A DNA stretch of 64,000 bases from Streptomyces ipomoeae 91-03 (GTDB lineage: Bacteria > Actinomycetota > Actinomycetes > Streptomycetales > Streptomycetaceae). This document shows positions 3,788 to 37,115 of the stretch, piece after piece. The stretch is from the NCBI RefSeq assembly GCF_000317595.1, contig NZ_AEJC01000627.1, positions 1 through 64,000 on the forward strand, given 5' to 3'. The notes under the pieces were generated by a model that worked only from the letters and a program-made list of their open reading frames with translations, searched no databases and was not told the origin of the DNA. Both the position numbers and the translations under genes were made by a program. The number at the start of each line of letters is the position of its first letter. Positions within the stretch are counted from its first letter, which is position 1.

Positions 3788-3928
3788 GCCCGGCTCCCCT
3801 CTCCCAGTACCGCGTGGAGCCGATCCTCGCGCATCGTCACGGCCCATGCTCCCGAGCAGGCTACGCCGGGGGGTGGGTGAGCGGGAACACGGGCAGTAGC
3901 AGTGGTACCGACTGCGGCACGGGGCCGC

Positions 3929-11111: not shown

Positions 11112-11132
11112 ACGGCTCCACCTCCGCCCCAA

Positions 11133-20987: not shown

Positions 20988-22457
20988 GTGGATTTCGACG
21001 AGGTCACGGCGCTTGTCCGCCATCCGGCATGGGTGCTGCTGCGCGCGGACAACGCCGCCTTGGTGTTGTCCTTCTGCGGCACGGTGTTCGTCGACGAGAA
21101 CGCGCGCGGTGTGCCGGAGACCGTGCTGGAGTCCCGGCTTGACGACCGGCTCTACCTCCTCAACGAGGAAAAGCCCGGCTCGTTTCCCCGGTCCGCCGAC
21201 GCCTATCTGGCGGAATGGACGAAGAACGGCTGGCTGCGCAAGTACTACCCGCCTGGAGAGGACGAGGCGCATTTCGACGCGACTGCGGCCCTCGAGAAGG
21301 CCGTGGCCTGGGTGCGGGACCTGCCCGCACGTTCGTTCATCGGAACCGAGTCCCGCCTGAACACCATCGTCGCGCTCCTGCGGCAGATGGCGTTCGGAAC
21401 GGAAACCGATCCGCAGACACGCATCGACGAACTGCGCCGGGAGCGTGACGCGATCGACGCCCAGATCGCCCGGCTGCGCGCCGGTGAGGTCGACATGCTG
21501 TCCCCGCTCGCACTGCTGGACCGCTACCAGCAGGTGGAGAGCACCGCGGTCGAACTCCTGCGGGACTTCCGCGAAGTGGAGGCCAATCTTCGGGAACTGG
21601 ACGTACGTCTGCGCCACCAGGTCGCCACCGCCGAGGGCGGCAAGGGAGAGCAACTGGCCGCGTTCCTGCTGGACCGCGACGAGATCGCCCGGTCCGATCA
21701 GGGACAGAGCTTCCAGGCGTTCTTCGACTACCTCCTCTCCCCCCGCCGCCAGCAGGAACTACGGGAGCTGCTGCAACAGGTCAACCAGCTGCCACAGTTG
21801 GAAGGCAGGGCCAACCAGAGCCTGCTCAAGATCCCCTTCGCCTGGCTGGAGGCAGCCGAGAACACCCAGGACACGGTCCGGCAGCTGACCGAGCAGCTGC
21901 GCCGCTTCCTGGTCGACCGCAGCCGAGCAGAGGACCGCCGCGTCCTGGCACTGGTGCGCTCCATCCAGCGTCACGTCACCGCCCTGGAAGGCCGGGCCGA
22001 CCTGCCCGGCATGGCGCTGGACATCCCTCAGGCACATCTGACGCTGCCGATGGAGCGACGGCTGTACATGCCGGCCGAACGCATCGAGCTGGACACCGCC
22101 GCGGTGGAGGAATCCGACGACGCGGAGGTGGACATCTCCGAGCTTTTCTCCGGCGTCCACGTCGACACCGAGGCGCTGACCGGTCATGTCCTGGAGGCGG
22201 TCGCCGCAAGCCCGAGCGGCCAGGCGAACCTGGCCGCCATCGTCGACGACCACCCGCTGACCCTGGGGCTCGCGGAACTGCTCGCCTACTTCCAGGTGGA
22301 GCACCCCGGCCTGGACATGATCGTGGACCCGGACCGCACCGACCTCCTGGTCTACCCGCGCGTCCACGTGCCCGGGCACACGCAGGCGAGAGTGCCGCAC
22401 GTGACGTTCGTACGCGACGAAGGCGGCACCGCCGCCGGAAAGGCGGAGCAGGAGTGA
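20988..22457 (+). CDS. jetA: Wadjet protein JetA (DUF3375)
   Basis: A 489-residue DUF3375 protein. The GTG at 20988 follows a G-run and gives the usual start (DFDEVTALVRHPAWVLLRAD); an in-frame ATG at 20970 is the alternative. JetA is the MukF-like kleisin subunit of the Wadjet condensin-type complex. The N-terminal winged-helix region, a long helical middle and the C-terminal winged-helix part (TLGLAELLAYFQVEHPG) fit the family. It is first of four coupled genes (jetB start overlaps its stop by four bases). Wadjet complexes find and cut small circular DNA, so the system would guard against plasmids. Confidence 0.88.
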   Translation: MDFDEVTALVRHPAWVLLRADNAALVLSFCGTVFVDENARGVPETVLESRLDDRLYLLNEEKPGSFPRSADAYLAEWTKNGWLRKYYPPGEDEAHFDATAALEKAVAWVRDLPARSFIGTESRLNTIVALLRQMAFGTETDPQTRIDELRRERDAIDAQIARLRAGEVDMLSPLALLDRYQQVESTAVELLRDFREVEANLRELDVRLRHQVATAEGGKGEQLAAFLLDRDEIARSDQGQSFQAFFDYLLSPRRQQELRELLQQVNQLPQLEGRANQSLLKIPFAWLEAAENTQDTVRQLTEQLRRFLVDRSRAEDRRVLALVRSIQRHVTALEGRADLPGMALDIPQAHLTLPMERRLYMPAERIELDTAAVEESDDAEVDISELFSGVHVDTEALTGHVLEAVAASPSGQANLAAIVDDHPLTLGLAELLAYFQVEHPGLDMIVDPDRTDLLVYPRVHVPGHTQARVPHVTFVRDEGGTAAGKAEQE

Positions 22458-23044
22458 GCGACGCCCTGACCGTCCCCGTGGTCCACCTGCTGAAAGCGGG
22501 CGTGCTCTATCAGAGCGATGCCCCTGCCGTCTGGGAGCAGATCGTCAGCCAGCAGGCGGCGATCGGCGACTACCTCAGCGTGATCGGCCTCGACGTCGTC
22601 ATCGACCGCGCCGAGGGCTACGCCTACGTCCGACAGCAGGATCTCGATTCCCGTGACGACGGCGTCCCGGTGCCCCGGCTGGTCACCCGCCACCGGCTCT
22701 CGTTCCCCGTCAGCCTGATGCTCGTCCTGCTGCGCGGACGACTCGCGGACAGCGACGCCGACTCCGCCGACCCGCGCCTGGTACTCACCCGCGACAACCT
22801 GGTCGAGATGATCCGCGGCTTCCTCCCACCACGCAGCAATGAAGCCCAGCTCGTCGACCAGATCGACGCCCACATCAAGAAGCTCGTCGACCTCAAGGCA
22901 CTGCGCCAGACGAAACAGACCGGCGCCTACGAGGTCCGCCGCCACATCAAGGCCCTGGTCGACGCCCAGGCCCTCAACGACTTCAACGACCTCCTCGCCA
23001 CCTACCGCGACGCTGCCTCCACCACGGCCAAGGACGACACATGA
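22454..23044 (+). CDS. jetB: Wadjet protein JetB (DUF4194)
   Basis: A 196-residue DUF4194 protein, the MukE-like partner (kite subunit) of JetA. The GTG at 22454 lies inside the jetA stop. The sequence is mostly helical with a winged-helix pair (YEVRRHIKALVDAQAL). Its stop overlaps the ATG of jetC by four bases, as expected for subunits made in fixed ratio. Confidence 0.87.
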   Translation: MSDALTVPVVHLLKAGVLYQSDAPAVWEQIVSQQAAIGDYLSVIGLDVVIDRAEGYAYVRQQDLDSRDDGVPVPRLVTRHRLSFPVSLMLVLLRGRLADSDADSADPRLVLTRDNLVEMIRGFLPPRSNEAQLVDQIDAHIKKLVDLKALRQTKQTGAYEVRRHIKALVDAQALNDFNDLLATYRDAASTTAKDDT

Positions 23045-26000
23045 CCCTCACCACCGACCCGGCAGCGCTCATCCCACGGCAGGCAACGACCGCAGAGCCT
23101 GCCGGCACGTTCGACGTCGGCCCCGGTTACCGGCTCGCCCGCCTGGAGGTGCTCAACTGGGGCACCTTCCACCGCACCACCTGCACCTTCACCATCGACG
23201 GGCACTGCGCCCTGCTCACCGGAGGCGTGGGATCGGGCAAGTCCACCCTCGTGGACGCGCTCACCACGCTGCTTCTGCCCGCCCACAAGATCGCCTACAA
23301 CAAAGCGGCGGGCGCCGACGCCAAGGAGCGCGACCTGCGGTCCTACGTCCTCGGCCATCACAAGAACGAGCGCGTCGAGGCCTCCGACACCACACGCCCC
23401 GTGGGACTGCGCGACCACACGTCCTACAGCGTGATCCTGGGCGTCTTCACCAACTACGCCCTCGGCACCCACCTCACGCTCGCCCAGGTCTTCTACTGGA
23501 CATCCCCGACCAGCACCGGACAGCCCGAGCGGTTCTACCTCACCGCCGAGGCACCGCTGTCCATCGACACCGACTTCACCGGCTTCGGCACCGACATCAC
23601 CGACCTGCGCCGACAGCTGAAGCAGCGCGGGGCCACCATCCACGGCAGCACATACACCCAGTACGGCAAGGCACTGCTGAGAGGCCTGGGCATCCCCAGC
23701 CTGCAGGCCCTGGACCTGTTCCACCAGACGGTGTCGATGAAGGCCGTGGGCAGCCTGGACGAGTTCGTCCGCGAGCGGATGCTGGAGCCGTTCGATGCGA
23801 AGACGGCCGTCGACAAGATCGTCGCCCACTTCGACGCGCTCACCGCCAGCCACAACGAAGTCGTCCGGGCCCGTCGGATGATCGAGGACCTGACGCCGAT
23901 CGTGGTGGCATGCAACCGGTACGACACCGTCCAGGGGGAGATCACCGCCCTGGACAAGCGCCGCAGTGCCGTCCCCGCGTTCTTCGCCCAGCACCGCCAC
24001 CGGCTCCTCACGACACGTCACACCGCGCTTATGTCCGGTGCGGCGGAACTGGAGGAACTGCAGTCCACTCGCGAGCGGCAGCTAGAGCAGCTGCGTGGGA
24101 CGGCCGACGGCCTGCGGCGCCGTATCGACGGCGTCGGCGGGGAGAAGCTCATCTCCCTGACCGGCCGGATCGAAGAGCTCGGCCGCGAACGCGAACGGCG
24201 CCGCAAGCGCGCCACCGAGTACGGCACCTGGCTCGCGCAGGCCGGCATGGATCCCGTCACCGACGCCGCCTCCTTCCGCGAGCGCACCGACCAGATCTCC
24301 ACCGCCCGCTCCCGGGCCGAGGAACAAGAGCAGCAGGCCCGCGGGAAACTCGACGATCTCGCCATCGCGCGCCACAACAACACCATCTCGACCGACGCGC
24401 TGCGGCGCGAGATCACCAGCCTGCAGCAGCAGCGCTCCAGCATCCCCGCCCAGTTGCTGACCCTGCGTCGCGAACTCGCCACCGCCACGGGCGTCTCCGA
24501 CGAGGTCCTGCCGTTCGCCGGCGAGCTGATCCAGGTCCGCGACGACGAAGCCGAGTGGGCCGGTGCCGCCGAGCGCGTACTGCACGGGTTCGCCTTGTCC
24601 CTGCTGGTCCCACATGCCCACTACGACACCGTCTCGGCCTGGGTCAACGACCGTCACCTGGGCCTCAGGCTGGTCTACTACCAGGTCCCCGCCCACACAC
24701 CCATCACCACGCTGCCGGACGACCCCATCCTGCTGACCGGCAAACTCCGGCTCAAGTCCGACAGCTGGGCCCGCGACTGGCTCGCCGCGCGGCTGCGCTC
24801 GCGTGCCGACTACCTGTGCGCCGAAGACCTGGACGCGTTCGCCCGCGCCACCCGGCCCGCCGTCACCCGGCAGGGCCTTGTCAAGGGCGGCGGAGGCCGC
24901 CACGAGAAGAACGACACCCACCGCATCGACGACCGGCGCAACTGGGTGCTGGGTTGGAGCAACCAGGCCAAGCTCGACGCTCTCCTCGCCGAGGCCACCC
25001 GCCTCACCCGCGAAAGCGCCGACATCACTACGGCCGCCCGGGAACTCGAGAAGCAGCAGCGGGCCCGCGCCGGAACCAGTGCCGCCCTCACCCTGCTGGG
25101 CAGCGTCGGCACCTACGCGGAACTCGACTGGCGGAGCACCGTCGCGCACATCGAGCAGTTCGAGCAGCAGAAGAGCGCCCTGGAAGCAGAAGCCGGTCTG
25201 GACAAGCTCACCGCGCAGCTCCGGCGGACCGAGGACGAGATCGTACAGAGCAGCAAGACGTTCACCACGGGGCAGGAGGAGCTGGGCGGCCTGCGCCGCG
25301 ACGTCCAGCACATCGCCGACCTGCTGGGCAGGACCACCACGTTCCTCGCGAAGTGCGACCTCGACGGCATGGCGGAGCACGAGGAAGCCCTGCGGAAGTT
25401 CCTGCCCGCAGCCGACGGCGACGGCCTCCTGGAGATGCTGGACGACGCCGAGCGCCATGCCGAAGCACGTCTGCTGCGCAGCAGCGGCAGTCGCCACGAC
25501 GCCCTGCGCCACGCTGGCAGCCAGGCAGCGGGGCTGATGACCGCCTTCCGCGGCAGGTACCCGGTCCACACCGCCGAGCTGGACAACACCATCGAATCCG
25601 CCAGCAGCTACCGCGCGTTGCACAGCCGGCTCACCGACGAGGACCTGCCCCGGTTCGAGGAGCAGTTCCTCCTGTACCTGCGCACCAACGTCATCCGCGA
25701 CATCGCTTCCTTCCAGGCCCATCTCGGCGCTCAGGAGCAGCAGATCCGCGAGCGCATCGATGTGATCAACACCTCGCTGGCCGGCATCGACTACAACCCG
25801 GGCCGCTACATCCGGCTCAACGCCGCCCCCACGCCGAACAAGGAGGTCCGCGAGTTCCAGCACGACCTGCGGGCCTGCACCAGCGAAGCGCTCTCGAACG
25901 ACGCCGATGACGCGTACACCGAAGAGAAGTTCCTCCAGGTCAAGGCGCTCCTCGACCGCTTCAAGGGCCGTCCGGAGCACACCCGTCTCGACAAGGAGTG

Positions 26001-26478
26001 GACCGCCCGGGTCACCGACGTGCGGCGCTGGTTCGTCTTCTCCGCCAGCGAGCTCAACCGCGAGGACGACGCCGAGTACGAGGTCCACTCCGACTCCGGC
26101 GGCAAGTCCGGCGGCCAGAAGGAGAAACTCGCCTACACCATCCTCGCGGCTTCCCTCGCCTACCAGTTCCGCATCGACCCCACCGCCGCCAAACCCAAGA
26201 CCTTCCACTTCGTCACCATCGACGAAGCCTTCGGACGCGGTGACGACCCCTCCGCCCACTTCGCCCTCGACCTGTTCCAGCGCCTGGGCCTGCAACTCCT
26301 CGTCGTCACCCCGCTCCAGAAACTCCATGTCATCGAGCCCCACGTCACCCGCGTCGGCTACGTCGACCGCCCCGACAAGACCCGCTCCCGCCTGAACAAC
26401 CTCACCATCGAGGAGTTCCGCGCCCACAAGCAGGCAGCAGCCCAGCAGGCGAACCAGCCCCCGAAGGAGCAGTCGTGA
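23041..26478 (+). CDS. jetC: Wadjet SMC-like ATPase JetC
   Basis: A 1145-residue MukB/SbcC-like ATPase (COG4913 type). It has an N-terminal Walker A GGVGSGKSTL (Lys67), central coiled coils, a C-terminal signature (SGGKSGGQKEK, about residues 1019-1029) and Walker B (TIDEAFGR, near 1060). JetC forms the loop-extruding motor with JetA and JetB. The sequence looks intact from end to end, with all ATPase residues in place, so the system is probably functional. Its stop overlaps jetD by four bases. Confidence 0.9.
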   Translation: MTLTTDPAALIPRQATTAEPAGTFDVGPGYRLARLEVLNWGTFHRTTCTFTIDGHCALLTGGVGSGKSTLVDALTTLLLPAHKIAYNKAAGADAKERDLRSYVLGHHKNERVEASDTTRPVGLRDHTSYSVILGVFTNYALGTHLTLAQVFYWTSPTSTGQPERFYLTAEAPLSIDTDFTGFGTDITDLRRQLKQRGATIHGSTYTQYGKALLRGLGIPSLQALDLFHQTVSMKAVGSLDEFVRERMLEPFDAKTAVDKIVAHFDALTASHNEVVRARRMIEDLTPIVVACNRYDTVQGEITALDKRRSAVPAFFAQHRHRLLTTRHTALMSGAAELEELQSTRERQLEQLRGTADGLRRRIDGVGGEKLISLTGRIEELGRERERRRKRATEYGTWLAQAGMDPVTDAASFRERTDQISTARSRAEEQEQQARGKLDDLAIARHNNTISTDALRREITSLQQQRSSIPAQLLTLRRELATATGVSDEVLPFAGELIQVRDDEAEWAGAAERVLHGFALSLLVPHAHYDTVSAWVNDRHLGLRLVYYQVPAHTPITTLPDDPILLTGKLRLKSDSWARDWLAARLRSRADYLCAEDLDAFARATRPAVTRQGLVKGGGGRHEKNDTHRIDDRRNWVLGWSNQAKLDALLAEATRLTRESADITTAARELEKQQRARAGTSAALTLLGSVGTYAELDWRSTVAHIEQFEQQKSALEAEAGLDKLTAQLRRTEDEIVQSSKTFTTGQEELGGLRRDVQHIADLLGRTTTFLAKCDLDGMAEHEEALRKFLPAADGDGLLEMLDDAERHAEARLLRSSGSRHDALRHAGSQAAGLMTAFRGRYPVHTAELDNTIESASSYRALHSRLTDEDLPRFEEQFLLYLRTNVIRDIASFQAHLGAQEQQIRERIDVINTSLAGIDYNPGRYIRLNAAPTPNKEVREFQHDLRACTSEALSNDADDAYTEEKFLQVKALLDRFKGRPEHTRLDKEWTARVTDVRRWFVFSASELNREDDAEYEVHSDSGGKSGGQKEKLAYTILAASLAYQFRIDPTAAKPKTFHFVTIDEAFGRGDDPSAHFALDLFQRLGLQLLVVTPLQKLHVIEPHVTRVGYVDRPDKTRSRLNNLTIEEFRAHKQAAAQQANQPPKEQS

Positions 26479-27653
26479 CCCCGGCAGAATGGACCCGCCC
26501 CGAGCATGTGGTGGAAACCCTGCGCCGCAAGTGGACCAGCGGCCGCTACCTCACCGCCGCCGCGGGCGGTCACCCCTTCGAACCCATCGGAGTGCCGCTG
26601 AAGGGCCCGACCGCGGCCGATGCCCTGCAGCACTACGAGCAGGCACTCGCCTGGGCCCAGTGCTGGGCCCCCGACCGGAACCCCCATCTGCGCATCCAGA
26701 CCAAATCCATCGGAGGCCGCAACGGCACCCCGTCGAATACCGTTCCGGCCCGAGCCTGGGTCGACACCCGCGACCGCCTCTGGACGCTGCTCCGCGTCAC
26801 TACCCAGGTCGACCGCTTCCACACGCTGCACGAGCAGACCGCACGCCAGGACCCCGGCATCGCACGGTGGATGGCCGACCATCCCATGAAGGTCCTCGCC
26901 CACGCTGCAGACTGGCACCGGCTCGTGCGCACCACGTGCTGGATCCGCGACCACGACACCGAGGCGGTCTACCTGCGCGAGATCGACACCCCGGGCGTGG
27001 ACACCAAGTTCATCGAGACCAACAAAGGAATCCTCGCCGAACTCCTCGACTGTGTGCTCCCTGAAAGCCGCGTCAACACCAGCGCACCGAAGAGCGATCT
27101 CGTCGCCCGCTACGGCTTCCGCACCAAGCCCATCTACATCCGCCTGCGCTACCTCGGCACCTCTCCCCTGCCCTTCAGCGAACTCACCGTCCGCGCCGAG
27201 GAACTGGCCGACTGGTCCCTGGGGGTGCGCACCGTCTTCGTCCTCGAGAACGAGATCACCTACCTCTCCCTGCCGCCGGTCCCCGACGCCATCGCCATCC
27301 TCGGCTCCGGATACGCCGCCGCCCTGCTGCGTCATCTGCCCTGGCTCGACGATGTCGACCTCTGTTACTGGGGCGACATCGACACCCATGGCTTCGCCAT
27401 CCTCGACCAGGTCCGAGGACGCTTCCCGCACACCACGTCACTGCTCATGGACCGCGCCACCCTCCTCGCCCACGAGTCCCACTGGGGCCAGGAGAAGACA
27501 CAGGCACGCGGCGGCCTGACACACCTCACCCCCGAGGAGGCCCACCTCGACCGGGACCTGCGGACCGGCGTCTACCGGCCGCACCTGCGCCTGGAGCAGG
27601 AGCGCATCGCCATCACCGCCGTGCGAGAGGCTCTGACGCGGCACCAGGGATGA
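26475..27653 (+). CDS. jetD: Wadjet nuclease JetD (DUF3322/DUF2220, Toprim)
   Basis: A 392-residue protein with an N-terminal DUF3322 region and a C-terminal DUF2220 Toprim-like domain. The Toprim acidic residues are visible: Glu258 in FVLENEITYL and Asp301-x-Asp303 in YWGDIDTHGF. JetD is the topoisomerase VI A-like nuclease that cuts the plasmid after JetABC has extruded it. The order jetABCD without interruption, and without the extra genes of other types, matches type I Wadjet. Confidence 0.9.
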   Translation: MTPAEWTRPEHVVETLRRKWTSGRYLTAAAGGHPFEPIGVPLKGPTAADALQHYEQALAWAQCWAPDRNPHLRIQTKSIGGRNGTPSNTVPARAWVDTRDRLWTLLRVTTQVDRFHTLHEQTARQDPGIARWMADHPMKVLAHAADWHRLVRTTCWIRDHDTEAVYLREIDTPGVDTKFIETNKGILAELLDCVLPESRVNTSAPKSDLVARYGFRTKPIYIRLRYLGTSPLPFSELTVRAEELADWSLGVRTVFVLENEITYLSLPPVPDAIAILGSGYAAALLRHLPWLDDVDLCYWGDIDTHGFAILDQVRGRFPHTTSLLMDRATLLAHESHWGQEKTQARGGLTHLTPEEAHLDRDLRTGVYRPHLRLEQERIAITAVREALTRHQG

Positions 27654-28111: not shown

Positions 28112-28789
28112 TCAGGTGGTCATGAGGCGGTTGTAGTCCTCGGCCTGCTGGGCGAGGTCGTCTTCGGGGATGCCGGTGAAGGCGCTCATCTGGGCGTAGG
28201 TCAGGCCGCTTCGGCGTCCGACCAGCGCGAGCTCCCACAGGGCTTGGTTGATCCGGGCCCTGGCGGTGCCGAGGGAGACCATACCGAGCTCGACACCGGT
28301 CACGGCCGACATAGTGCCCTCGATCTTCAGCTCGGCCATGTGACGGACCGCGCAGGTGATCAGGTCGGTGACAAACTCCGGCATATCGGAGGGGACGTTG
28401 CCTGCCCAGGTCCGCTCATATGGTTCCGGTGAGCCGGCGTCGGCGTGCTGGGAGCGGCGATCGGTGATGTACTCCCACACCCACCGGTAGGACACCGGGA
28501 GCCCGTCGGTGCGACGGTTCAGTTCCTCATACAGCTCGAAGGCCGAGCGGCGCTCCTCGGACGCCTTGGCCTGGTCGTCTTCCAGCAGCGCATCCAGGAA
28601 CTGACGGGCCTGGTCCAGGCCCTCTTCGTCAGCCGGGAGGGAATGCGGCAGGGGCAGCACAGTCGAGATCGCCTCCTTGACCGTCTGTCTGGCCACGCCG
28701 TGGCGGGCGGCCAGGGACCTCGGCAGCCTGTCGCCCGCGCGGTGGTCGCGGCGGATCGCTTCGAACAGTTCCGTCCCCGGGTCGGCCAT
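28112..28789 (-). CDS. HTH protein at the end of the transposition operon
   Basis: A 225-residue protein from the ATG at 28789, with GGGGAG upstream. Residues about 8-45 form a helix-turn-helix of the IS21/IstA-like type (SLAARHGVARQTVKEAI), and a second helical motif lies near the C-terminus (GLTYAQMSAFTGIPEDDL). It is separated by 46 bases from the previous gene, so it may be part of the operon or an adjacent regulator. It could mark an end-binding or target-binding factor. Confidence 0.6.
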   Translation of the reverse strand: MADPGTELFEAIRRDHRAGDRLPRSLAARHGVARQTVKEAISTVLPLPHSLPADEEGLDQARQFLDALLEDDQAKASEERRSAFELYEELNRRTDGLPVSYRWVWEYITDRRSQHADAGSPEPYERTWAGNVPSDMPEFVTDLITCAVRHMAELKIEGTMSAVTGVELGMVSLGTARARINQALWELALVGRRSGLTYAQMSAFTGIPEDDLAQQAEDYNRLMTT

Positions 28790-28835
28790 CGTCTGCTCCC
28801 CTTGTATATGCAGGCTGGTCGGGCGCTTGCATGCT

Positions 28836-29990
28836 TCATGCTGCCCGGCTCGGTGCCGGCGTGCCGCCCGTGCTCCGATGTGCGGCCGCGGGCCGTCTGG
28901 AACTCGGGGTGGTCGCGGCCTGGCGCTCGATCACACCGCAGGCGTGGGCTGCTTCGGTCACGGCCGCCTGGTCCCAGGGGCTCAGCCGCAGCAGGCGGTC
29001 GCTGTGCGCCGGCCGTTCCAGTTGCCCGAAGCGGCGGGCTGCGTCGGTCAAGTCCAGCGCCCAGGACGGTATCTGTACCTCCCGGCCACGGTCTGTCCGG
29101 ATCGTGGCCGCGCTCGCGGCGGGTATCTGCTGCAGCTGTGGGGCCGGGCAGCCGGTGACGATGCGCACCGCCAGTGCCGCGGCGTGAACGGGATGGGCGA
29201 TGCGCGCGTGGAGCCGGTGCGCGAGGAGCGTGGTGGGCTCATCGGGCTCGGGTGGGAAGCGGCCGGCGGCGGGCAGCGAGAGCACCCCACGGCCCAGGCG
29301 GCGGGCCGCTGCCTCGATTGTGCCGCGGCCGGGCGCACGCCGGGTGGGCAGCAGGAAACACGGCTCGTCCGGGTGGGGCGGGAACTGCCCGTCCGCCTCC
29401 CACCAGGCGAACCGGTCGGCGGATGGTAGTGAAGCGGGAGTGCCCACGGCGCGGCGGGCCGCGGCCAGGGTGTGTGCCTCTTCGTGCGGGAGCCCGCTCA
29501 GGGCGGCGGCCAGGACGGACGGGAGCGGGCCGTGGCACAGCAGGGTCAGCCGGATTCCGGTCAGCTCCCGCAGGGCGAGGAGGTGCTCGAAGTGCCGGGA
29601 GCTGATGCGGTGGGTCCGGGTGACGACGACATGACCGATACGCAACGCCAAGATCCAGGCGGCGACCGCGCGCCAGGTGGTCTCGGTGTTGCCGGTCCAG
29701 AAGGTGCTGTTCTCGCTCCCGGCCAGGGGTAAGTGTTTGCCCATGCTGCGCAGCAGGTCGTGGGCCAGGGCGGCGGGAGCGCTCGCCACGGGAGTGGGGT
29801 GGACGGTGATGCGGCCCAGCGCGGGGGTGTGGGCGGCCAGCGCGGCGGCCATGAAGGCATGGTCGTCGTGGGGGTCGTGCACCACGGTGAGCGGGGGCAG
29901 ACCGGGGCGGGCGTGGCCGGGTGACCATGTGGGCCTCCACGCGCCGGTGGTGGTCTCGGTCACGGCGGCCGTGCGCGGCATCGGCATCAC
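28836..29990 (-). CDS. Degenerate ATPase-like protein, paralogue of 30769-32226
   Basis: A 384-residue protein. Its core (GRITVHPTPVASAPAALA, TWRAVAAWILAL, VVVTRTHRISSRHFEHL, TGIRLTLLCHGPLPS) aligns segment by segment with the protein at 30769-32226, and both follow the strand order of the AAA+ ATPase at 32223-33050. The Walker A glycines and lysine are missing, and the Walker B acids are replaced (TRTH instead of VEDAH). It probably has a structural or target-selecting role rather than ATPase activity; this is inference from comparing the sequences by eye. Its start overlaps the preceding gene by four bases. Confidence 0.6.
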   Translation of the reverse strand: MMPMPRTAAVTETTTGAWRPTWSPGHARPGLPPLTVVHDPHDDHAFMAAALAAHTPALGRITVHPTPVASAPAALAHDLLRSMGKHLPLAGSENSTFWTGNTETTWRAVAAWILALRIGHVVVTRTHRISSRHFEHLLALRELTGIRLTLLCHGPLPSVLAAALSGLPHEEAHTLAAARRAVGTPASLPSADRFAWWEADGQFPPHPDEPCFLLPTRRAPGRGTIEAAARRLGRGVLSLPAAGRFPPEPDEPTTLLAHRLHARIAHPVHAAALAVRIVTGCPAPQLQQIPAASAATIRTDRGREVQIPSWALDLTDAARRFGQLERPAHSDRLLRLSPWDQAAVTEAAHACGVIERQAATTPSSRRPAAAHRSTGGTPAPSRAA

Positions 29991-30772
29991 CGCGGCCTGG
30001 GTGGTGGTGTCCGGTCAGCGGCAGGCACCGACGCGGGGCCGTCTGCGGTGGCCTCTGTCTGGGTGTGGGGATGGACGGCCAGGCCGAGGGCGAACAACAC
30101 GTCCGGATGGGGAGCCGGCTGCTCGCCGGAGGGGGCAAGCAGGCGCCGGTTGGCCAGGCGGGGGATCTGCTCGGGTGACACGTCGGCAGGAAGGCCGGTG
30201 ACGGTGTAGTGCAGCAGGCGGGTGACGGCGGCAGCCTCGCCGGGGGCGAGACAGGCGGCGGTGTGGCCTGAGTTGTGCAGGTTCTGCCGCTGCTTGGGGC
30301 CCAGCAGGCCGGGGACGGTGGTCAGGTGGATGACGGTGTCGGTGTGGAGGAGCCGGTGGGGGCTGCTGGGCTGCTCGAGGTGGGCGGCCAGGGTGGTGGC
30401 GGCGCGCTTCAGGCGGTGCGGGGTCCATTCCAGAGCGGAGGCCAGGTCGTCGGGGTGGATGCGGTCGGCCTCGAGCAGGGCGGCGTGCAGCACGGTGGCG
30501 TGGTCGGCCGCCTCCGGGGCGGGACGGCGGGTCGGTTCGGACTGGCGCAGGAGGGATTCCGCGGAGGTGTTCAGGGCGCGGGCGAGGGTGAACAGGGTCG
30601 CGGCGGGGAGGGTGTGCGGGGTGAGGTGGGTGTCCCAGTCGGCGGTGGGGATGCCGGTCAGCGCGGTCAGGTCCTCGTCGGTGAGCCGGCACTCCATGGC
30701 GCGTGTCCGCAGGAACATCAGGTCGAACACGACCGCGGACGTGCCGCCGGACGGCGCGAGTTGGTCGGTCAC
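29987..30772 (-). CDS. HTH-like protein of the transposition operon
   Basis: A 261-residue protein with a Cro-like helix-turn-helix at about 30-75 (CRLTDEDLTALTGIPTADW, ATLFTLARALN), a second helical repeat (LHAALLEADRIHPDDLASAL) and a region ending in Pro-rich sequence. It overlaps both neighbours by four bases. TniQ/TnsD-type target selectors are HTH proteins in related elements, but I see no zinc-finger Cys cluster here, so that identification is only a suggestion. Confidence 0.6.
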   Translation of the reverse strand: MTDQLAPSGGTSAVVFDLMFLRTRAMECRLTDEDLTALTGIPTADWDTHLTPHTLPAATLFTLARALNTSAESLLRQSEPTRRPAPEAADHATVLHAALLEADRIHPDDLASALEWTPHRLKRAATTLAAHLEQPSSPHRLLHTDTVIHLTTVPGLLGPKQRQNLHNSGHTAACLAPGEAAAVTRLLHYTVTGLPADVSPEQIPRLANRRLLAPSGEQPAPHPDVLFALGLAVHPHTQTEATADGPASVPAADRTPPPRPR

Positions 30773-32226
30773 GGGCGTAACTCCCCAAGGCGCGGCAGGG
30801 CATCAGGGACGGGTGGCGCGGGGGTGTGCAGGTGCCAGCAGCGGGCGGCGGTGTGCCAGTTGTCTCCCACGTGGGGGTGGGCAAGGGCGGGGATCGCAAG
30901 CCCGGCGTCGGCGATGAGGGCCTCGAGGCGTGGCGTGGTGCCGAAGCAGTTCGCGAACAGGCCGTGATTATCGGCGGTGCGCGGGGTGCGGCGGCGGAAT
31001 TCCACGGCCGCGCGCAGCAGGGGGCGGGCGCGGGGCGGGATCGCGTACATGTGCCGGGGCCCAGCAGGTTCACCGATGTTGATCCGCGAGTCACGGTCGA
31101 TGGCCATGGTGGTGCCGCCCTCGTCGACGCTCGCTATCTGGGTCATCGACAGCAGCGACTTGTCGGTGCCGGTGAACATCAGGGCCGCCACCGCGGCGGC
31201 GCGCAGCGGGTTGGGCAGGCGCACGGTGATCGTGTGCACGACGCGCGCCGTGAGGGGCACGGTGGTGATGCCCGGCCCCGCGCAACTGGTGAGGTCGTCC
31301 GGCACATTGAGCAGCACCGAGCGGGCCAGGAAGCCGGCCTGGGCGCCGCGCACGCGCGCCACGGTGTGCTGCGGGCTGGGACTTGAGACGGTCAACCGTG
31401 CCAGGAACAGCCGCAACGCCTCTATCTCTTGCAGATTCCAGGGGGTGGGTGCGGCCGGGCCGTCGGCGGGAGCGGTGACCTCGGGTTGGGGCGGCTGGGT
31501 GCGGGCCAGCCAGGTGCGGGCAGCGGCGTAACCGGCGCGGTACTGGCCGTCGGTGTGGGCGAAGTCCGTGGCGTTCTGGCGGCGCCAGCAGTCCGCGCGG
31601 AACGCGGCCACCCCGCTACGGGGCACCGTCGGCAGCGGGTAGGCGTGATCGCGCGGGGGCGGGCCGATGCGGCGGCCGACGGCGGCCGGGCCGATCGCGC
31701 CGAGGACGGCGGCCATGTCGCGTACGGTCACCACGTCCACCAGATGGGCGGCTGTGAGGTGTTCGCGCAGTCGCTGCTCGTCAGTCGGCTCCGGGATGTG
31801 GGCGAGGAGCGTGAGGCGGATGCCGGTGTCCGCGCGCCACGCGGCCAGGCGGCGCAGCCGCTCGACGGTCAGGCGGTGGGCGCGCAGCACGATCGCCTCG
31901 TGCATGTCGGTGGCCAGGGTCCAGCAGGTCACCGCACGCCAGGCCGGGTCGGTGGACATCCGCTCGGCTTCCGGGCGGGAGAACCCGTCGCGGCCCATGG
32001 CGCGCAGCACATCCAGCGCGAGGTAGGCCGGACTGGTGGTGTGCGGGGTGGGATCGACGGTGATCCGGCCGCGGGCGGGATCGGCCCACTGGTAGGCGGC
32101 CCGGTGCACCGCGTGGTCGTCGTCGCCGTCCAGCAGCAGCCTCACCGGCCGCGCCGCCGGGGCCGTCGGCGGCGGAGCGGCCTGCGGGCCGGGGGCGGGG
32201 GCGGGAGGAAGCGTGGGGGTGGTCAT
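30769..32226 (-). CDS. Degenerate ATPase-like protein of the transposition operon
   Basis: A 485-residue protein from the ATG at 32226, which overlaps the ATPase stop by four bases; the longer open frame upstream is a shadow of that ATPase gene. Residues about 35-150 mirror the ATPase at 32223-33050: LLLDGDDDHAV stands where LGDAGVGKT should be, and IVLRAHRLTVERLRRLAAW where VVVEDAHRLSASCFEYL should be. So strand order and the AHRL turn persist, while the P-loop Lys and Walker B acid are gone. The C-terminal 250 residues are a separate domain of unknown type, with a segment LPNPLRAAAVAALMFTGTD. Confidence 0.65.
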   Translation of the reverse strand: MTTPTLPPAPAPGPQAAPPPTAPAARPVRLLLDGDDDHAVHRAAYQWADPARGRITVDPTPHTTSPAYLALDVLRAMGRDGFSRPEAERMSTDPAWRAVTCWTLATDMHEAIVLRAHRLTVERLRRLAAWRADTGIRLTLLAHIPEPTDEQRLREHLTAAHLVDVVTVRDMAAVLGAIGPAAVGRRIGPPPRDHAYPLPTVPRSGVAAFRADCWRRQNATDFAHTDGQYRAGYAAARTWLARTQPPQPEVTAPADGPAAPTPWNLQEIEALRLFLARLTVSSPSPQHTVARVRGAQAGFLARSVLLNVPDDLTSCAGPGITTVPLTARVVHTITVRLPNPLRAAAVAALMFTGTDKSLLSMTQIASVDEGGTTMAIDRDSRINIGEPAGPRHMYAIPPRARPLLRAAVEFRRRTPRTADNHGLFANCFGTTPRLEALIADAGLAIPALAHPHVGDNWHTAARCWHLHTPAPPVPDALPRLGELRP

Positions 32227-33050
32227 GGGCGCCGCCCGCCGTCGATCCGGTCGGCCACGGCCTGCAGCATGCCCCCATCGGGCGTGCTCGCTCCGGTGGC
32301 GGCCAGAGCCCGCTGAGTGTGAAGGGTCAGCACGACCCAGCGGCGCAGACAGCCGTCGGCGAGGCGGGCGTCCAGCGCCTTCAGGTCGCCGGGCGCGACG
32401 CTCTGCCACAGCGGATGCAACGCGGGAACCGCCTTCGGGACCTGGTCGCGGGTGAGCGGCCAGATGTAGGGCCAGCCTGCGGTGCGGGTGGCGAGCATCC
32501 GCTGGGCGCGCAAGGAGCGTTCGCCGCGCGCCTGGGCGATCAGCACCACACACAGCCCCTGGGGGAGATCGTCGTGCAGGAAACGCAAGTACTCAAAGCA
32601 CGACGCCGACAGCCGGTGGGCGTCCTCGACCACGACGATCCGCGGCTTGAGAGCCAAGGCGCGGCGGATTAAGGCATCGGCGGCCCCGGGGTCGGCAGGC
32701 GCCTCGCCACGGAGCCCAAGTGCACGGTGGAGGGCGGCGCGCAGGTCCGCCGGCGCCGGCTGAGCCCGGAAGTCCAGCGGCAACAGCTCACCGAGGCGGC
32801 GGGCGGCGGTGTGGACGGCGAAGGTCTTGCCTACCCCGGCATCGCCCAGCACGCACACAAACCGGCCCTGGGCGTATGAGTCGGCGAGCGCATCGCCCAC
32901 GGCGAGCATGCCCGGGGTGAGCAAGGTGCGTACACCTGGGGCGTCGAGGAAGTGCAGGCCGGGTGGGGCGGCGTCTTCCATGACGGCGAAGGGCTCGGCT
33001 GCGGCGGCCGCGCCCCAGACGGCCGACGGCAAAGGCGAGGTGGTCAGCAC
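32223..33050 (-). CDS. TniB/TnsC-like AAA+ ATPase, second copy
   Basis: A 275-residue ATPase. The GTG at 33050 lies inside the end of the upstream ATPase gene (seven-base overlap). Walker A is LGDAGVGKT, Walker B is IVVVEDAH, and a sensor-type segment (LIAQARGE) follows. Proteins of this kind control when and where a DDE transposase acts. It is clearly related to the ATPase at 33044-33844 but diverged, so the element carries two intact ATPases in tandem. Confidence 0.75.
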   Translation of the reverse strand: MLTTSPLPSAVWGAAAAAEPFAVMEDAAPPGLHFLDAPGVRTLLTPGMLAVGDALADSYAQGRFVCVLGDAGVGKTFAVHTAARRLGELLPLDFRAQPAPADLRAALHRALGLRGEAPADPGAADALIRRALALKPRIVVVEDAHRLSASCFEYLRFLHDDLPQGLCVVLIAQARGERSLRAQRMLATRTAGWPYIWPLTRDQVPKAVPALHPLWQSVAPGDLKALDARLADGCLRRWVVLTLHTQRALAATGASTPDGGMLQAVADRIDGGRRP

Positions 33051-33844
33051 CGCTTCAGGGCCCAGTCCACGACCCGGTCGTCGACCTTGGCGGCCCCCAA
33101 GTGCTCCATGCCCTTGATCACATGCTTGGTGACCTTCACCCACTCACGGAAGGAGCCGAGCGCGTACTGGGTGTCGACCCGCTTCAGCAGCGCCTCCTCC
33201 GCGCCCCTCCACACCGGGTGCGAGTCGGGCACGGTCCGGAGGACCTCGTCCTCGGTCATCGCCAGGATCTCCAGGCGAATGTAGATCCGCGAGGCCAGCG
33301 CCGGGTCGCTCTGCAGCGTCTCGTACGCCTCCCGGCCGCCAACGAAGAGAATGGCGGGCTTGGGGTCGCAGGTGTCCCACAGCTTGCGCAGGAACTCGAA
33401 GTTCTCCCGCCGGTACTGCTGGGCCTCGTCGCACACGATCACGTACGGACGCCGGGGCAGGGTCTCACGCAGCAGCTTGTCGAACGCGGTCGGCGTACCC
33501 GGCATCTTGCAGGACAGGTTCATCTGGTGGAACAGCTCCTCGCGCAGGTCCTTCGGCCCCGGGCGGGAGCGGGCGAAATCCAGGGGCAAGATCAGATCCG
33601 GATTCATCTCCTGGATCGTGGCCCGGGTGCCGAAACTCTTGCCGAGCCCCGCATCGCCGTAGACCACCGACATGGCCCGCGACTCGACGGTGTCGACGAC
33701 GGTGTCCTTGATCTGCAGCAGCGTGTCAGTGGCGACCAGCGACGAGTCCTCAAGGCCGAGGAAGAACTGCGGGCGCAGGTCCGGACGGCGCGGCGCCGCC
33801 GACTCGGGCGGCTGAGGCTGCGGCACGGTGGCGGTGGATGTCAT
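33044..33844 (-). CDS. TniB/TnsC-like AAA+ ATPase, first copy
   Basis: A 266-residue ATPase with Walker A VYGDAGLGKS, Walker B VIVCDEAQ and the following FEFLRKLWD and FVGGREAY segments, as in TniB and MuB/TnsC-type transposition regulators. Its ATG overlaps the transposase stop by four bases. It would bind target DNA and activate the transposase next door. Confidence 0.82.
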   Translation of the reverse strand: MTSTATVPQPQPPESAAPRRPDLRPQFFLGLEDSSLVATDTLLQIKDTVVDTVESRAMSVVYGDAGLGKSFGTRATIQEMNPDLILPLDFARSRPGPKDLREELFHQMNLSCKMPGTPTAFDKLLRETLPRRPYVIVCDEAQQYRRENFEFLRKLWDTCDPKPAILFVGGREAYETLQSDPALASRIYIRLEILAMTEDEVLRTVPDSHPVWRGAEEALLKRVDTQYALGSFREWVKVTKHVIKGMEHLGAAKVDDRVVDWALKRC

Positions 33845-35499
33845 GTGTCCTCCGAAGACGCATTCGAGGGGGCAGGGGCCTGGCCGGGGCGTGCCCAGCC
33901 GGCCGGGATGGGGGTCAGGGGCTGGTACGGCTCTTCGCGCCGGCGGGGAGCAGCAGGCGCTCTACCGCTGGTGCCCGCGAGTTCAGCGAGCGCCTCTTCC
34001 CTGGTCATGCGGGTTGCCTGGACGGGCAGTTGGGGTTCGGTAGCCGGCAGATAACGGTCGCGTCTGCGCTCACCGGAGCGCTGCAGTGCCCGGCGCAGGG
34101 CAGCACTGTGCTCCTGGCGGTCGTCAAGGACCTTGGTGCGCAGTTCCTCGGTGGCCTCGTCGCTGAGGAACGCCCGGCCCAGGTAGCGGTCGCCGCGGAA
34201 GGTGTACAGGTCGATCTCGTGGCTGTGGTGCGGCATCCACCGCACCCGCACCTCGACCCCGATCCGGCCGACACCGTTCTCCGGCATGTAACAGCGGCCC
34301 GCGAACTCCACCCCGTGACTGGTGATCTTCCGGGGCCTGTGGTCGCTCTCCAGCATGAACGCACGCAGCTCCTCGGGGCCGGGCTCGGGACGGATCTCGG
34401 TGGGGTCGGCCAGCCACGCCTCAAGCGGCGTCACCCCGGTGCGCTTCACCACGTGTTTGGTGTTGTGCTCGGTGACCCACTCGCGCAGCAGGCCGACGAA
34501 CGCCTCGAAGGTCAGCGGCGGGTCCCCGTCGCCTACCCGACGGCGGTGATCGAGCCGGGGCGCCTTGGTGTAGCGGGGCAGGTCGGCGAAGAAGCGGGTC
34601 ATGCTGGTGCGGTTCAGCCGCTCGATACCACCCTTGTGGCGGGCACTGCGCACCCGGTGGACCGGCACCCCCAGCAGCCCGAAAGCCCGCCGGACGGTCC
34701 TGGACAAAAAGTCGGCACCGCCATCGACCCGTACGAGCTCCGGCAGCCCCCCGGCCGGCCCATAAGGATCCTCCCGCAGCACCGACGCCCGCACGGCCGC
34801 CAGAACCGATCCCCGGTGCGCGGAGCCGACCGTGACCGCCCAGCCCATCACATAGCCGGTACCGCGGTCCTCGAACCACGTCACCCACACCTTCGACAGC
34901 TTCTCGTCGGGCATCATCACGACGAGCGGGACCTGCTTGTGATCGCCCTCCCACACCTGATTACGGGCCACCGCAGGCCGCTGGAAGGCGGGATCGAAGC
35001 CGCGAGCGGCCGGAATCCCCTCCCGCAGACCCGCCATGAAACCGGGATCGAGATCACGGGCGATGGCATCGTGCAGCGTCGTCAGCCCCACCGGCTTCTC
35101 CCCCGCCTCCTCGGCCATGCGCACCAAGTGCTCGTGGGCGCGCTTGACGTTGCCCTGATAGTCGGCGAGGACATCGATGATCTCGTCGGTGATCCGAAAC
35201 CGTCTGCGCTCGGGCTTCTCCGTGGAACCGGTCTCCTCCGCCTGCGCCAGCCAGCGCCACACCTGCCGCACGCTCACACCCACCGACTCGGCGACCAGCC
35301 GCACATGCGCGGTCGTCAACTCCCCCGCCCCACGCAGCCCGAGCAACTGCCGCACCGCGGCAGGCCGCAACTCATCCCGATGCCGGCCCAAGCCCACCTC
35401 CGGAGCCTCCGAGGCGTCATCCAGTGCCGTCACCGGTGACGGCACCCATGAGGTAGGCGGGCCGATAACGGCACGGTGATCACGGACAGCCTCCAACAA
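33841..35499 (-). CDS. DDE transposase, TniA/TnsB/Mu type
   Basis: A 552-residue integrase-fold transposase. A helix-turn-helix segment lies at about 75-100 (ESVGVSVRQVWRWLAQAE), then the catalytic core with Asp186 (WEGDHKQ), Asp259 (VRVDGGADF) and Glu293 (KGGIERLN), a D,D(33-35)E arrangement. The Mu-type C-terminal beta-barrel follows (YMPENGVGRIGVEVRVRW, YLGRAFL), and then a basic Pro-rich tail that would contact the ATPase. It is the first gene of the operon. Confidence 0.85.
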   Translation of the reverse strand: MLEAVRDHRAVIGPPTSWVPSPVTALDDASEAPEVGLGRHRDELRPAAVRQLLGLRGAGELTTAHVRLVAESVGVSVRQVWRWLAQAEETGSTEKPERRRFRITDEIIDVLADYQGNVKRAHEHLVRMAEEAGEKPVGLTTLHDAIARDLDPGFMAGLREGIPAARGFDPAFQRPAVARNQVWEGDHKQVPLVVMMPDEKLSKVWVTWFEDRGTGYVMGWAVTVGSAHRGSVLAAVRASVLREDPYGPAGGLPELVRVDGGADFLSRTVRRAFGLLGVPVHRVRSARHKGGIERLNRTSMTRFFADLPRYTKAPRLDHRRRVGDGDPPLTFEAFVGLLREWVTEHNTKHVVKRTGVTPLEAWLADPTEIRPEPGPEELRAFMLESDHRPRKITSHGVEFAGRCYMPENGVGRIGVEVRVRWMPHHSHEIDLYTFRGDRYLGRAFLSDEATEELRTKVLDDRQEHSAALRRALQRSGERRRDRYLPATEPQLPVQATRMTREEALAELAGTSGRAPAAPRRREEPYQPLTPIPAGWARPGQAPAPSNASSEDT

Positions 35500-35529
35500 C
35501 GAACACCGCTTGCGTACGGGGCAGTTCAG

Positions 35530-35560
35530 TCAGACGCACGTGTGTGACGGATGCGTCTGA
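35530..35560. repeat. Inverted repeat upstream of the transposase
   Basis: Nine-base arms TCAGACGCA (35530-35538) and TGCGTCTGA (35552-35560) are separated by 13 bases, 30 bases upstream of the transposase start. They may be a transposase or regulator binding site close to the element end. The rest of 35500-35824 shows no convincing gene. Confidence 0.5.
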
Positions 35561-35867
35561 TGCGAGGCTATGAGCCACGCATGGGCTTCCCGCCCAGCCG
35601 CTCACTCGGGCGGGTGACAGCAGAACGTTCCCGCCAGTTCGATGGACGCACGCGCTAATGACCCTCGGGACCGCTGCGGAAATCTGGACCAGCCAGGCTC
35701 TGCGGCACCGGCACCGGCGTCGCACTCCCCCACGGCACCTGCCAAGAACCGCCGGACACACTCCACGCACCCAGACGGCTCCGTGAAGACCAGGAAGACA
35801 AAGGAGAAACAGCGAACACGACACTGAGGGGCCTCGCGTTTTCCGGACAGTCTTCTGACCGTTTATT

Positions 35868-36731
35868 TCACGCGGCGATTCGCAACTTCTCATACTCGGC
35901 GTGGACTTCGCGCGGAGGGCGGTAACCCACCGCCGAGTGGAGGCGTTTGCGATTGTACCAGAATTCGATGTAGCGAGTGATGTCCTGCCGGGCGGCCTCG
36001 CGGGTCAGGTAAGTCACCCTTGATACGCGCTCGTTCTTCAGGGCACCGAAGAATGATTCGGCCATGGCGTTGTCGAAACAGATCCCGGTGCGGCCGGCAG
36101 ATCTGCGGAGCCCGAACCGGTCCAGCGTCCTCCCGAACTCGGCTGACATGTAGTTACTTCCGCGATCCGAGTGAAATATCGCGTCGGCCGAGAGGTTCCT
36201 GTTCCGTGCCGCGTTACGGATCGCCCTGGATATCAGTGAGGTTTGGTAGTGGTCGTCCATGGCGTAACCGATGACTTCCTTCGTGCAGCAGTCGATGACC
36301 GTTGCGAGGTACAGCCAGCCTTCCCCGGTCGCGATATAGGTAATGTCACCGACGAGCTTCTCGCCGGGCGCATCCGCGGTGAAGTCGCGGCCGACGAGGT
36401 CCAGCACCTGGCCGGCCGCAGCCTGAGTGAGGTTGAACCTCTTCGGTCGTGGCAGGCAGGGCATCAGGCCCAGTTCGCGCATGAGGCGGCGGACCAGCTC
36501 CACGCCCGCGGCGACGTCCCAGCGGTGCAGCTGGGCCTGGATGCGCCTGTGCCCGTAGGTGCTGTCGGACATGTCGAAGGCTTTCTCGATGAGCAATTTC
36601 AGTTCTTCGCGCCGCTGGGCGGTCGCGGATTTTGGGCGGGATCGCCAGTCGTAGTAGCCGGATCTGGAGACGCCGAGTCGGCCGCACATGAACTCGACGC
36701 TGTATGCGTACTTCTCGGTGTCGAGCCGCAT
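35868..36731 (-). CDS. IS3 transposase, catalytic part (OrfB)
   Basis: A 287-residue DDE integrase: HTH_21-type region (ADMSDSTYGHRRIQ-like segment), then GDITYIATGEGWLYLATVID, HSDRGSNYMS, and DNAMAESFFGALKNE carrying the three catalytic acids, ending with the usual FWYNRKRLHSAVGY. The in-frame sequence upstream of the ATG reads PVASKYEFIDEM, so the natural product is probably an OrfAB fusion made by a -1 frameshift near the A-run at the end of orfA. It looks intact. Confidence 0.9.
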   Translation of the reverse strand: MRLDTEKYAYSVEFMCGRLGVSRSGYYDWRSRPKSATAQRREELKLLIEKAFDMSDSTYGHRRIQAQLHRWDVAAGVELVRRLMRELGLMPCLPRPKRFNLTQAAAGQVLDLVGRDFTADAPGEKLVGDITYIATGEGWLYLATVIDCCTKEVIGYAMDDHYQTSLISRAIRNAARNRNLSADAIFHSDRGSNYMSAEFGRTLDRFGLRRSAGRTGICFDNAMAESFFGALKNERVSRVTYLTREAARQDITRYIEFWYNRKRLHSAVGYRPPREVHAEYEKLRIAA

Positions 36732-36757
36732 CTCGTCGATGAACTCGTACTTGCTTG

Positions 36758-37048
36758 CTACCGGGGATCCTTCGCGAAGTACGCTGCGGCTTTTTTCAGG
36801 AAGGTAACTTCCATCTCCAGCTCGCGGTTGCGTCGTTCGAGTTCCTTCAGGCGCGCTCGCTCGTTCACCGTCAGTTCCGCCTCGGGGGCCGGTTCCTGCT
36901 GCTTCTGGTACTTCTTCACCCAGCCGCGTAGCGTCTCCGAGTTCAGCTCAAGCTCCCGGGCGACTTCGGAGATCGTCTTGCTTGACCTCAACGCGATCTG
37001 GACGGCTTCCTCGCGGAACTCCGGCGAGTACTTACTGGGTGGCGCCAC
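36758..37048 (-). CDS. IS3 OrfA (HTH and leucine-zipper protein)
   Basis: A 96-residue protein with a helix-turn-helix (SEVARELELNSETLRGWVKK) and a C-terminal zipper (RLKELERRNRELEMEVTFLKK). A run of six A at LKKAAA provides the likely slippage site for OrfAB. It binds the inverted repeats. Confidence 0.9.
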   Translation of the reverse strand: MAPPSKYSPEFREEAVQIALRSSKTISEVARELELNSETLRGWVKKYQKQQEPAPEAELTVNERARLKELERRNRELEMEVTFLKKAAAYFAKDPR

Positions 37049-37115
37049 TTCTTCCTCGTTTCCTTGTTCAGGACAACCCTATTGGGTGCCTGTCCGGAAA
37101 CTTCGTGGCCCCTCA

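Follow-up and report, generated by a model that had tools for sequence, protein, structure and literature searches.

Two AAA+ ATPases and two pseudo-ATPases in a Streptomyces operon that probably drives a telomeric transposon

Target choice in transposons of the Tn7/Mu type relies on one AAA+ regulator and, in most of them, on TniQ. The regulators TnsC and MuB form ATP-dependent assemblies on target DNA, and TnsB-like enzymes confine their cuts to the 3' end strands when TnsA is absent. Hsieh et al. (Science 2025) reportedly described telomeric transposons in linear bacterial genomes, namely on Streptomyces linear replicons, which are said to possess one transposon end and to use the telomere as their other boundary. 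The operon analysed here is located on the minus strand at positions 28112-35499 of a 64,000-nucleotide stretch of Streptomyces ipomoeae 91-03 DNA (contig NZ_AEJC01000627.1, positions 1 to 64,000; hereafter the window) and encodes a DDE transposase, two intact ATPases and two proteins, D1 and D2, of a family termed D. It probably represents the core machinery of a Streptomyces telomeric transposon that extends from an inner end, the TG end, to the telomere and in which D takes the place of TniQ. The basis for this reading is found in relatives of the operon: a single TG end, a telomere-proximal site, insertion into a terminal helicase gene and identical copies at both ends of one chromosome.

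The window element fits the telomeric transposons, a class that is already known and is cited in PMC12669027 and PMC13228271. The original prediction, which was made from the DNA alone, had missed the telomeric context, and its statement that the system seems undescribed was too strong, since PMC12669027 cites a 2025 report of such elements. With its two ATPases and two pseudo-ATPases, the operon represents at least a variant of the telomeric transposons, and both the pseudo-TnsC family and the doubled D1/D2 operon may already be contained in Hsieh et al. 2025. Work on an inactive TnsC paralogue did not appear among the titles and abstracts searched, a scope that excludes that paper. Like the telomeric transposons, the element of genome G051 has one transposon end and a telomere boundary. 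A type I-E CRISPR-associated transposon (CAST; I-E5) lacking TniQ-TnsD was found with telomeric transposons according to passages of PMC12669027, and the elements checked here likewise contain no TniQ: there was no match in G051 or G006, all three matches in G058 lie outside the element, no match was obtained on the window contig, and the sole match in the window's genome (G000, contig C591) is under the cut-off.

The window is part of a 69,704-bp contig in a 10.4-Mb draft genome, with a G+C content of 62-76% per kilobase. The operon consists of seven consecutive genes in the order transposase, ATPase 1, ATPase 2, D1, X, D2 and Y (Table 1); this gene order is kept in relatives, and the same operon is also found at a locus of Streptomyces sp. 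CB03234. Among solved structures, the transposase is closest to TnsB of ShCAST (ShTnsB, E 4e-14), and it matches the families PADLOC TnsB V-K (E 4.6e-13) and Mu-transpos_C (E 3.8e-6). Pfam searches and motif reading identify both ATPases as AAA+ domains with Walker A and B. ATPase 1 matches AAA_22 (E 1e-14) and, under the Pfam cut-off, TniB (E 5.7e-4), and shares 86-96% identity with its five best plasmid matches. ATPase 2, for which the GTG at 33050 was chosen as the start within an open reading frame (ORF) listed as extending to 33143, matches AAA_22 with an E value of 4.8e-13. X is conserved among window-type operons and gave no convincing family match in Pfam and NCBIfam searches, and Y resembles NCBIfam NF033546 over residues 21-117 (E 3.3e-7, far under the family cut-off).

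ORF reading reproduced the coordinates and the motifs GDAGLGKS, GDAGVGKT and the AHRL/THRI turn of the original prediction and confirmed that two intact ATPases and two proteins without Walker A and Walker B acids accompany a DDE transposase. The two D genes do follow the two ATPase genes; D1 and D2 are not adjacent, X lying between them, and a seventh gene, Y, follows D2. The arrangement goes beyond chance: its order is kept in relatives, D1 and D2 are homologous (41% identity over 139 amino acids (aa), 44% over 120 aa), and their ratios of nonsynonymous to synonymous substitution rates (dN/dS) lie below those of other frames.

Like Tn5053/Tn402 (TniABQ) and the type V-K CAST (TnsB, TnsC, TniQ), the window operon encodes a TnsB-like DDE transposase, and none of its seven proteins matches a TnsA family. 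Unlike these systems, it has no TniQ match and contains two ATPase types, and its relatives are one-ended. Relative to the gene orders of Tn5053/Tn402 and type V-K CAST, the D proteins occupy the operon position of TniQ. The N-terminal domain of D shares its modelled fold with the TnsC/MuB/TniB regulators, and the positions that these regulators hold in their operons are taken here by ATPase 1 and ATPase 2, both intact AAA+ proteins; D differs from them in lacking the P-loop and the Walker B acids and in carrying an extra C-terminal domain.

Transposon end, second boundary and telomere proximity

Using the D alignment, 84,980 species genomes were scanned, 87 relatives were confirmed and 80 loci were kept. 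Upstream of the transposase, the aligned window-type loci share a common start, TGTGARGTTCGG, which is followed by a second TGTTCGG repeat and preceded by unrelated DNA. This TG end, which in the relatives begins with TGTGAGGTTCGG, is present as a single copy upstream of the transposase in 18 of 18 loci, and an inverted partner was found in none of them, most loci spanning only 8-17 kb. A search of 17 loci that tolerated two mismatches yielded a single match on the opposite strand; it belongs to CP109454, at the inner side of its element. In CP109454, no inverted copy is present between the TG end at 311,432 and the record end at 339,165, and the same is true for the stretch between the TG end and the record end of CP030772. 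In L037, 3.5 kb separate the TG end from the transposase; L055 and L068 have an altered TG end, the search in L047, L053, G033 and G058 gave none, and the single match in L059 lacks the second repeat. At the opposite side of the operon, the nine aligned loci cease to be homologous at the stop codon of Y or just beyond it, with the exception of Wadjet carriers and short stretches.

The insertion targets were judged on 16 TG ends with enough flank. The TG end interrupts an open helicase frame in L042, L048, L061 and CP030772, and it probably lies inside a helicase frame in CP030074, where the alignment continues for 33 codons past it. In L046 the target is the D gene of another element, and in CP109454 it is an annotated DnaB-like gene. 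Three helicase queries failed to detect, on the telomere side, the upstream helicase half that adjoins the element in CP030772 and in G058, the latter being without a TG end itself.

The second boundary is revealed by the G051 chromosome: its left and right ends match over 11,645 bp without a single mismatch, and the first base on the inner side of the TG end is where they part. Since these terminal inverted repeats end exactly at the TG end, the second boundary of the G051 element is the telomere. Its outer end is made up of consecutive palindromes whose loops are three bases long (z -5.8 for the single strand). Split matches were obtained for the transposase and ATPase 2 of G051, so this copy may not be active. 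A related three-gene element in G093 forms a unit of at least 7,340 bp, which starts with TGGAAGTTTTCGCG and is located at the right end and in the left arm (51.6-58.9 kb); the two copies are 99.9% identical over 7,345 aligned columns and have different inner flanks. Together with the mismatch-free G051 repeats, this likeness of copies with differing inner flanks points to actual transposition only indirectly. The repeats of the G049 and S. olivoreticuli end pairs run past the compared stretch and are thus uninformative on the boundary. A unit reaching from one TG end to the telomere was observed in G051 and is presumed elsewhere.

The position on the replicon was assessed for 59 distinct plasmid records among the matches listed, the full matches to the two queries numbering 93 and 60. 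Of the listed records of at least 150 kb, 36 of 49 have a D/ATPase match at most 30 kb from an end (8.6 expected), and for Streptomycetaceae alone this applies to 33 of 40 (6.1 expected). These records are not independent, as several are near-duplicates; among eight records checked for topology, five are linear and three are labelled circular. A homologue of the terminal helicase gene occurs in 44 loci out of 80, and in 40 of these it and D are on opposite strands. This gene corresponds, by its position and helicase type, to ttrA, whose transcription is directed inward at most ends of Streptomyces replicons according to passages of PMC8743542.

In L069, L071, L079, L087, L102 and L158, a helicase gene, truncated in most of these loci, or a whole element is followed by an element and then, outward, by another helicase gene, as if telomeres had been captured in series. 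In L124 (NZ_CP030074), the type I-E CRISPR gene cas2e (13671-14021) is located just inward of the window-type element.

The D proteins

No Pfam or NCBIfam family matched D1 or D2, and D2 was also without a match in PADLOC. Structure prediction and superposition on TnsC, as proposed in the original prediction, bore out the AAA+ fold that it had assigned to both proteins, with TnsC/MuB as best matches at Z 9.7-9.9. The AlphaFold (AF2) model of D2 has a mean predicted local distance difference test score (pLDDT) of 86.9. For D1, whose model included 17 residues upstream of the likely start, the mean is 66.2, and only the N-terminal domain is good, its ten-residue blocks reaching 69-95 and mostly more than 80. 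The D2 domain (residues 30-174) aligns with ShTnsC (7plh) at a VIA-align Z of 9.9 and a root-mean-square deviation of 2.4 over 133 residues, and the D1 N-terminal domain aligns with the same structure at a Z of 9.7. When the solved structures are ranked by VIA-align, the top ten for D2 are TnsC or MuB without exception, as are nine of the top ten for D1. At the aligned positions of D, a D..DD motif stands in for the P-loop, and [LTC]R[AT]H is found where the Walker B acids would be; R125 and H127 of D are invariant in 50 sequences (alignment A3). In these models, the N-terminal domains of D1 and D2 look like pseudo-TnsC proteins with a TnsC/MuB-type AAA+ fold. That D is unrelated to AAA+ proteins is ruled out by the fold comparison with TnsC/MuB, although the sequence profile alone is weak.

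D also carries a separate conserved C-terminal domain, for which no PDB match at E 10 and no convincing Pfam match was obtained (best TGS, E 0.0089, in 2 of 17 members). A TG...QL pattern suggested a degenerate tyrosine recombinase; this candidate found no support, hhalign against eight recombinases giving E 0.87 and neither PDB nor Pfam being supportive. The hhalign comparisons with tyrosine recombinases or of the C-terminal half of D gave E values of 0.26-0.99. TnsF of Tn6022 resembles D in that a catalytically dead enzyme domain serves as target selector, which is the role of TnsF and the proposed role of D; however, TnsF derives from tyrosine recombinases and works with TniQ, as stated in passages of PMC10293859, whereas a profile comparison did not link the C-terminal domain of D to tyrosine recombinases.

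Of the 80 loci, 79 belong to Streptomyces, Kitasatospora or Actinacidiphila and one to another actinobacterium, and 26 of 101 genomes in a genus sample contained a match. D is also present in Rhodococcus elements; of four stretches on viral contigs that fitted the pattern, none was a relative. An ATPase gene immediately precedes D in 78 of the 80 loci, the exceptions being L096 and L112, and at least two ATPases are encoded in 59. The P-loop [AG]xxxxGK[ST] is found in 127 of 127 full-length ATPases and in 0 of 93 D proteins (stretches of at least 120 aa from 79 loci, including a few frameshifted copies), and a GRxTxHPxP-type strand motif is conserved in 87 of these 93. Homologues with intact Walker motifs, the observation that the original prediction had named as contrary to it, are thus absent among the 93. 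Its interpretation of D1 and D2 as decayed copies of the two neighbouring ATPases does not hold: they belong to a separate, widespread P-loop-less family that usually has one member per operon.

The median dN/dS, which rests on 6-10 comparisons per gene, is 0.17 for ATPase 1, 0.23 for the transposase, 0.31 for ATPase 2, 0.35 for Y, 0.37 for D1, 0.52 for D2 and 0.54 for X, making X and D2 the least constrained of the seven operon genes. As a control, the three other frames of D1/D2 gave 0.90-1.67, above the true frames. Of 100 D stretches, 83 reach at least 300 aa in many species, and some copies are frameshifted, e.g., those of L053 and L119. The possibility that D is a pseudogene is excluded by dN/dS with its other-frame controls, by the long open frames across species and by the invariant residues. 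Judged by these sequence comparisons, D is a conserved separate family under purifying selection and is not decaying.

The commonest plan of the operons is HTH-ATPase-transposase-ATPase-D (HTH, helix-turn-helix), or the shorter transposase-ATPase-D. A D1-X-D2 stretch is present in 14 of the 80 loci, 12 of which are complete from the transposase onward. ATPase 2 and the extra ATPase of the commonest plan form one clade (57 tips, support 0.997), and the two ATPase types are therefore old. In the commonest element type (L071-L120, e.g., L071 4065-5336), the second ATPase is paired, upstream of the real transposase, with a stretch whose match is confined to the N-terminal DNA-binding part of the transposase. 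A third ATPase-like gene lies directly 3' of D1 in the element of a linear plasmid (L125, NZ_CP030772, 13327-14016).

Proposed mechanism and competing explanations

According to the proposed mechanism, the TnsB-like transposase would nick the TG end and join it to target DNA near another telomere. By replication, which would then proceed through the element as far as the element's own telomere, the old arm would lose its distal part or be replaced. The two P-loop ATPases of different types would assemble on target DNA like TnsC and MuB, and the D proteins would replace TniQ by capping or joining this assembly, thereby tying it to telomere-proximal DNA. The TnsC-fold domain of D should not bind ATP, and D1 and D2 would be the doubled form of a protein that most elements encode once. 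The likeliest role of D is that of a target adaptor in place of TniQ. The target-choice role that the original prediction had considered is plausible, because D has a modelled TnsC/MuB-type fold without a P-loop and is encoded inside a transposition operon. IstB, the regulator of IS21, curves target DNA and activates its transposase (abstract of PMC11208146). More tentatively, and as a possibility rather than an expectation, it is proposed that a dead TnsC paralogue acts as a TniQ-replacing selector and that ATPases of two types and pseudo-ATPases build a mixed assembly that would identify chromosome ends and exchange their telomeres through one-ended transposition and subsequent replication up to the terminus. 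A family that lacks TniQ and has a conserved pseudo-ATPase beside its AAA+ regulator would have solved target choice in a second way, and the exact match of the terminal repeats with the transposon end would provide a concrete route for the exchange of Streptomyces chromosome ends.

Several points weigh against this interpretation. The window itself shows neither a TG end nor a telomere, and its membership rests on the relatives; the exact repeat boundary was demonstrated in one chromosome (G051), with G093 being similar. Among the matches listed, Rhodococcus and other non-Streptomycetaceae show no end bias (3 of 9, 2.5 expected), and the orientation toward the telomere is not universal, as 21 of 33 records are oriented outward and 12 inward. 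The records labelled circular are NZ_CP027025 (<150 kb), NZ_CP030074 and NZ_CP096039; the end position in NZ_CP030074, whose jetC gene runs off the record end, is doubtful for this reason. As regards the fold, the next structures beyond TnsC/MuB are an ABC transporter (Z 7.9) and an MCM subunit (Z 8.6), and the Z of 9.7-9.9 for D is only about 1-2 above unrelated P-loop folds. The Foldseek E values are weak, none being below 0.001 (best 0.016 for D2 and 0.0016 for D1), and hhalign gave E 0.0073 with a probability of 5% for the N-terminal part of D and E 0.015 with 3% for the whole protein. Finally, the role of D is one that we infer.

The main alternative, which appears unlikely, is that D does not choose targets but activates hydrolysis: as a nucleotide-free AAA+ partner between the ATPase subunits of a mixed ring, it would supply a trans-acting residue, as LAP1 and LULL1 do for TorsinA. 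LAP1/LULL1 likewise have an AAA+-like fold without Walker motifs and are paired with an active AAA+ ATPase, and LULL1 activates TorsinA by an arginine finger; the system is unrelated and serves as an analogy only, and for TorsinA itself a mixed ring was argued against (passages of PMC4999309). The invariance of R125 and H127 in the 50 sequences of alignment A3 and the position of D next to an active ATPase in 78 of 80 loci would suit an activator; however, the invariant arginine lies at the position of the Walker B acid, which is unusual for a finger. A role of D outside transposition, as a passenger of the element that maintains telomeres or binds terminal DNA, is decidedly improbable. The telomere within the G051 element and the separate conserved C-terminal domain would agree with such a function, but the position of D directly behind an ATPase gene (78 of 80), its modelled transposition-ATPase fold and its presence in Rhodococcus elements without end bias speak against it. 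An ordinary two-ended Tn5053/Mu-like transposon that drifted to the chromosome ends by recombination, its terminal inverted repeats stemming from the telomere exchange considered common between Streptomyces replicons (passages of PMC8743542), is the least probable explanation by far, since, even if a diverged second end could escape the search pattern in loci that mostly cover only 8-17 kb, the single TG end lacks an inverted partner in 18 of 18 loci, a single match on the opposite strand, at an inner side, turned up among 17 loci once two mismatches were permitted, and the G051 repeat boundary coincides with the TG end to the base.

The copy in the window and its neighbours

With the telomeric transposon as the preferred reading, the window copy appears as a truncated member (Table 1). 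Its homology to L041, L042 and L046 ends at 35824-35826, whereas those loci continue to the TG end. The adjoining IS3-type insertion sequence has ORFs at 35868-36731 and 36758-37048 on the minus strand and inverted ends at 35840 and 37100, and no target duplication was seen by eye. Because the homology stops at the start of the IS3 element and no target duplication was seen, the outermost transposon end was probably deleted together with the IS3 insertion. The copy is probably immobile now, and we infer its telomeric position from the relatives. Three exact telomere motifs and three terminal-helicase queries gave no match in the window, and the helicase queries also stayed without a match over the remainder of the contig. 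Two other contigs of the window's genome, C396 and C531, each carry one exact match to 12 bases of the TG end; the C396 match was rejected as a chance occurrence, the sequence being without the second repeat. A fragment at a contig edge of the same genome (L133, G000 C431, 1-249) shares about 96% identity with the region of ATPase 2 in a comparison made in another frame; the window strain therefore holds at least a remnant of a second copy.

Table 1. Positions of the operon genes and adjoining features in the window.
Feature	Position	Strand	Basis and remarks
Wadjet type I jetA-D, complete	20970-27653	plus	PADLOC JetA1-D1; convergent with the transposition operon
Y, 225 aa	28112-28789	minus	Like the DNA-binding N-terminal part of IS21 transposases (IstA), without DDE domain
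D2, pseudo-ATPase, TRTHRI	28836-29990	minus	Same family as D1; AF2 model and fold comparison
X, 261 aa	29987-30772	minus	HTH-like N-terminus judged by eye
D1, pseudo-ATPase, LRAHRL	30769-32226	minus	Predicted TnsC/MuB-like domain without Walker A/B, plus C-terminal domain
ATPase 2 (type B)	32223 to ~33050	minus	Walker A GDAGVGKT and VVEDAH, both intact
ATPase 1 (type A)	33044-33844	minus	Walker A GDAGLGKS and CDEAQ, both intact
DDE transposase, TnsB/MuA-like, 552 aa	33841-35499	minus	TTG start as listed; true start may differ
Inner part of transposon end region	35500-35825	minus	Homology to relatives; their terminal TGTGAGGTTCGG is missing here
IS3-type insertion sequence	~35825-37111		Pfam rve, HTH_21; adjoins the truncated transposon end; outer limits judged by eye

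The Wadjet operon is the probable cargo of the element. In L053 and L061, jetA-D occupies the same convergent position with 94-98% aa identity, and S. cadmiisoli CP030074 carries jetD and part of jetC there, also at 94-98% aa identity. Compared with the window at the DNA level, the Wadjet genes of L053 and L061 are about 96% identical, whereas the transposition operon is 80-88% identical; the Wadjet cargo and the transposition core thus have different histories, and the higher likeness of the Wadjet genes suggests cargo exchange. If Wadjet destroys circular plasmids, it would be a sensible cargo, as a linear element would lose nothing.

The same stretch encodes a Schlafen/AlbA_2 protein (2528-3847, minus), an HTH protein of 703 aa (9021-11132, minus) and an AAA_11/AAA_12 type helicase (19390-20838, plus), which together with Wadjet possibly form a defence island. 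An SbcC/SbcD-like pair lies about 12 kb beyond the operon (11301-15820, minus), and a distant SbcD/SbcC pair (L155 5404-10039; 32-40% identity) is located directly before the telomere-proximal element at both ends of the G049 chromosome.

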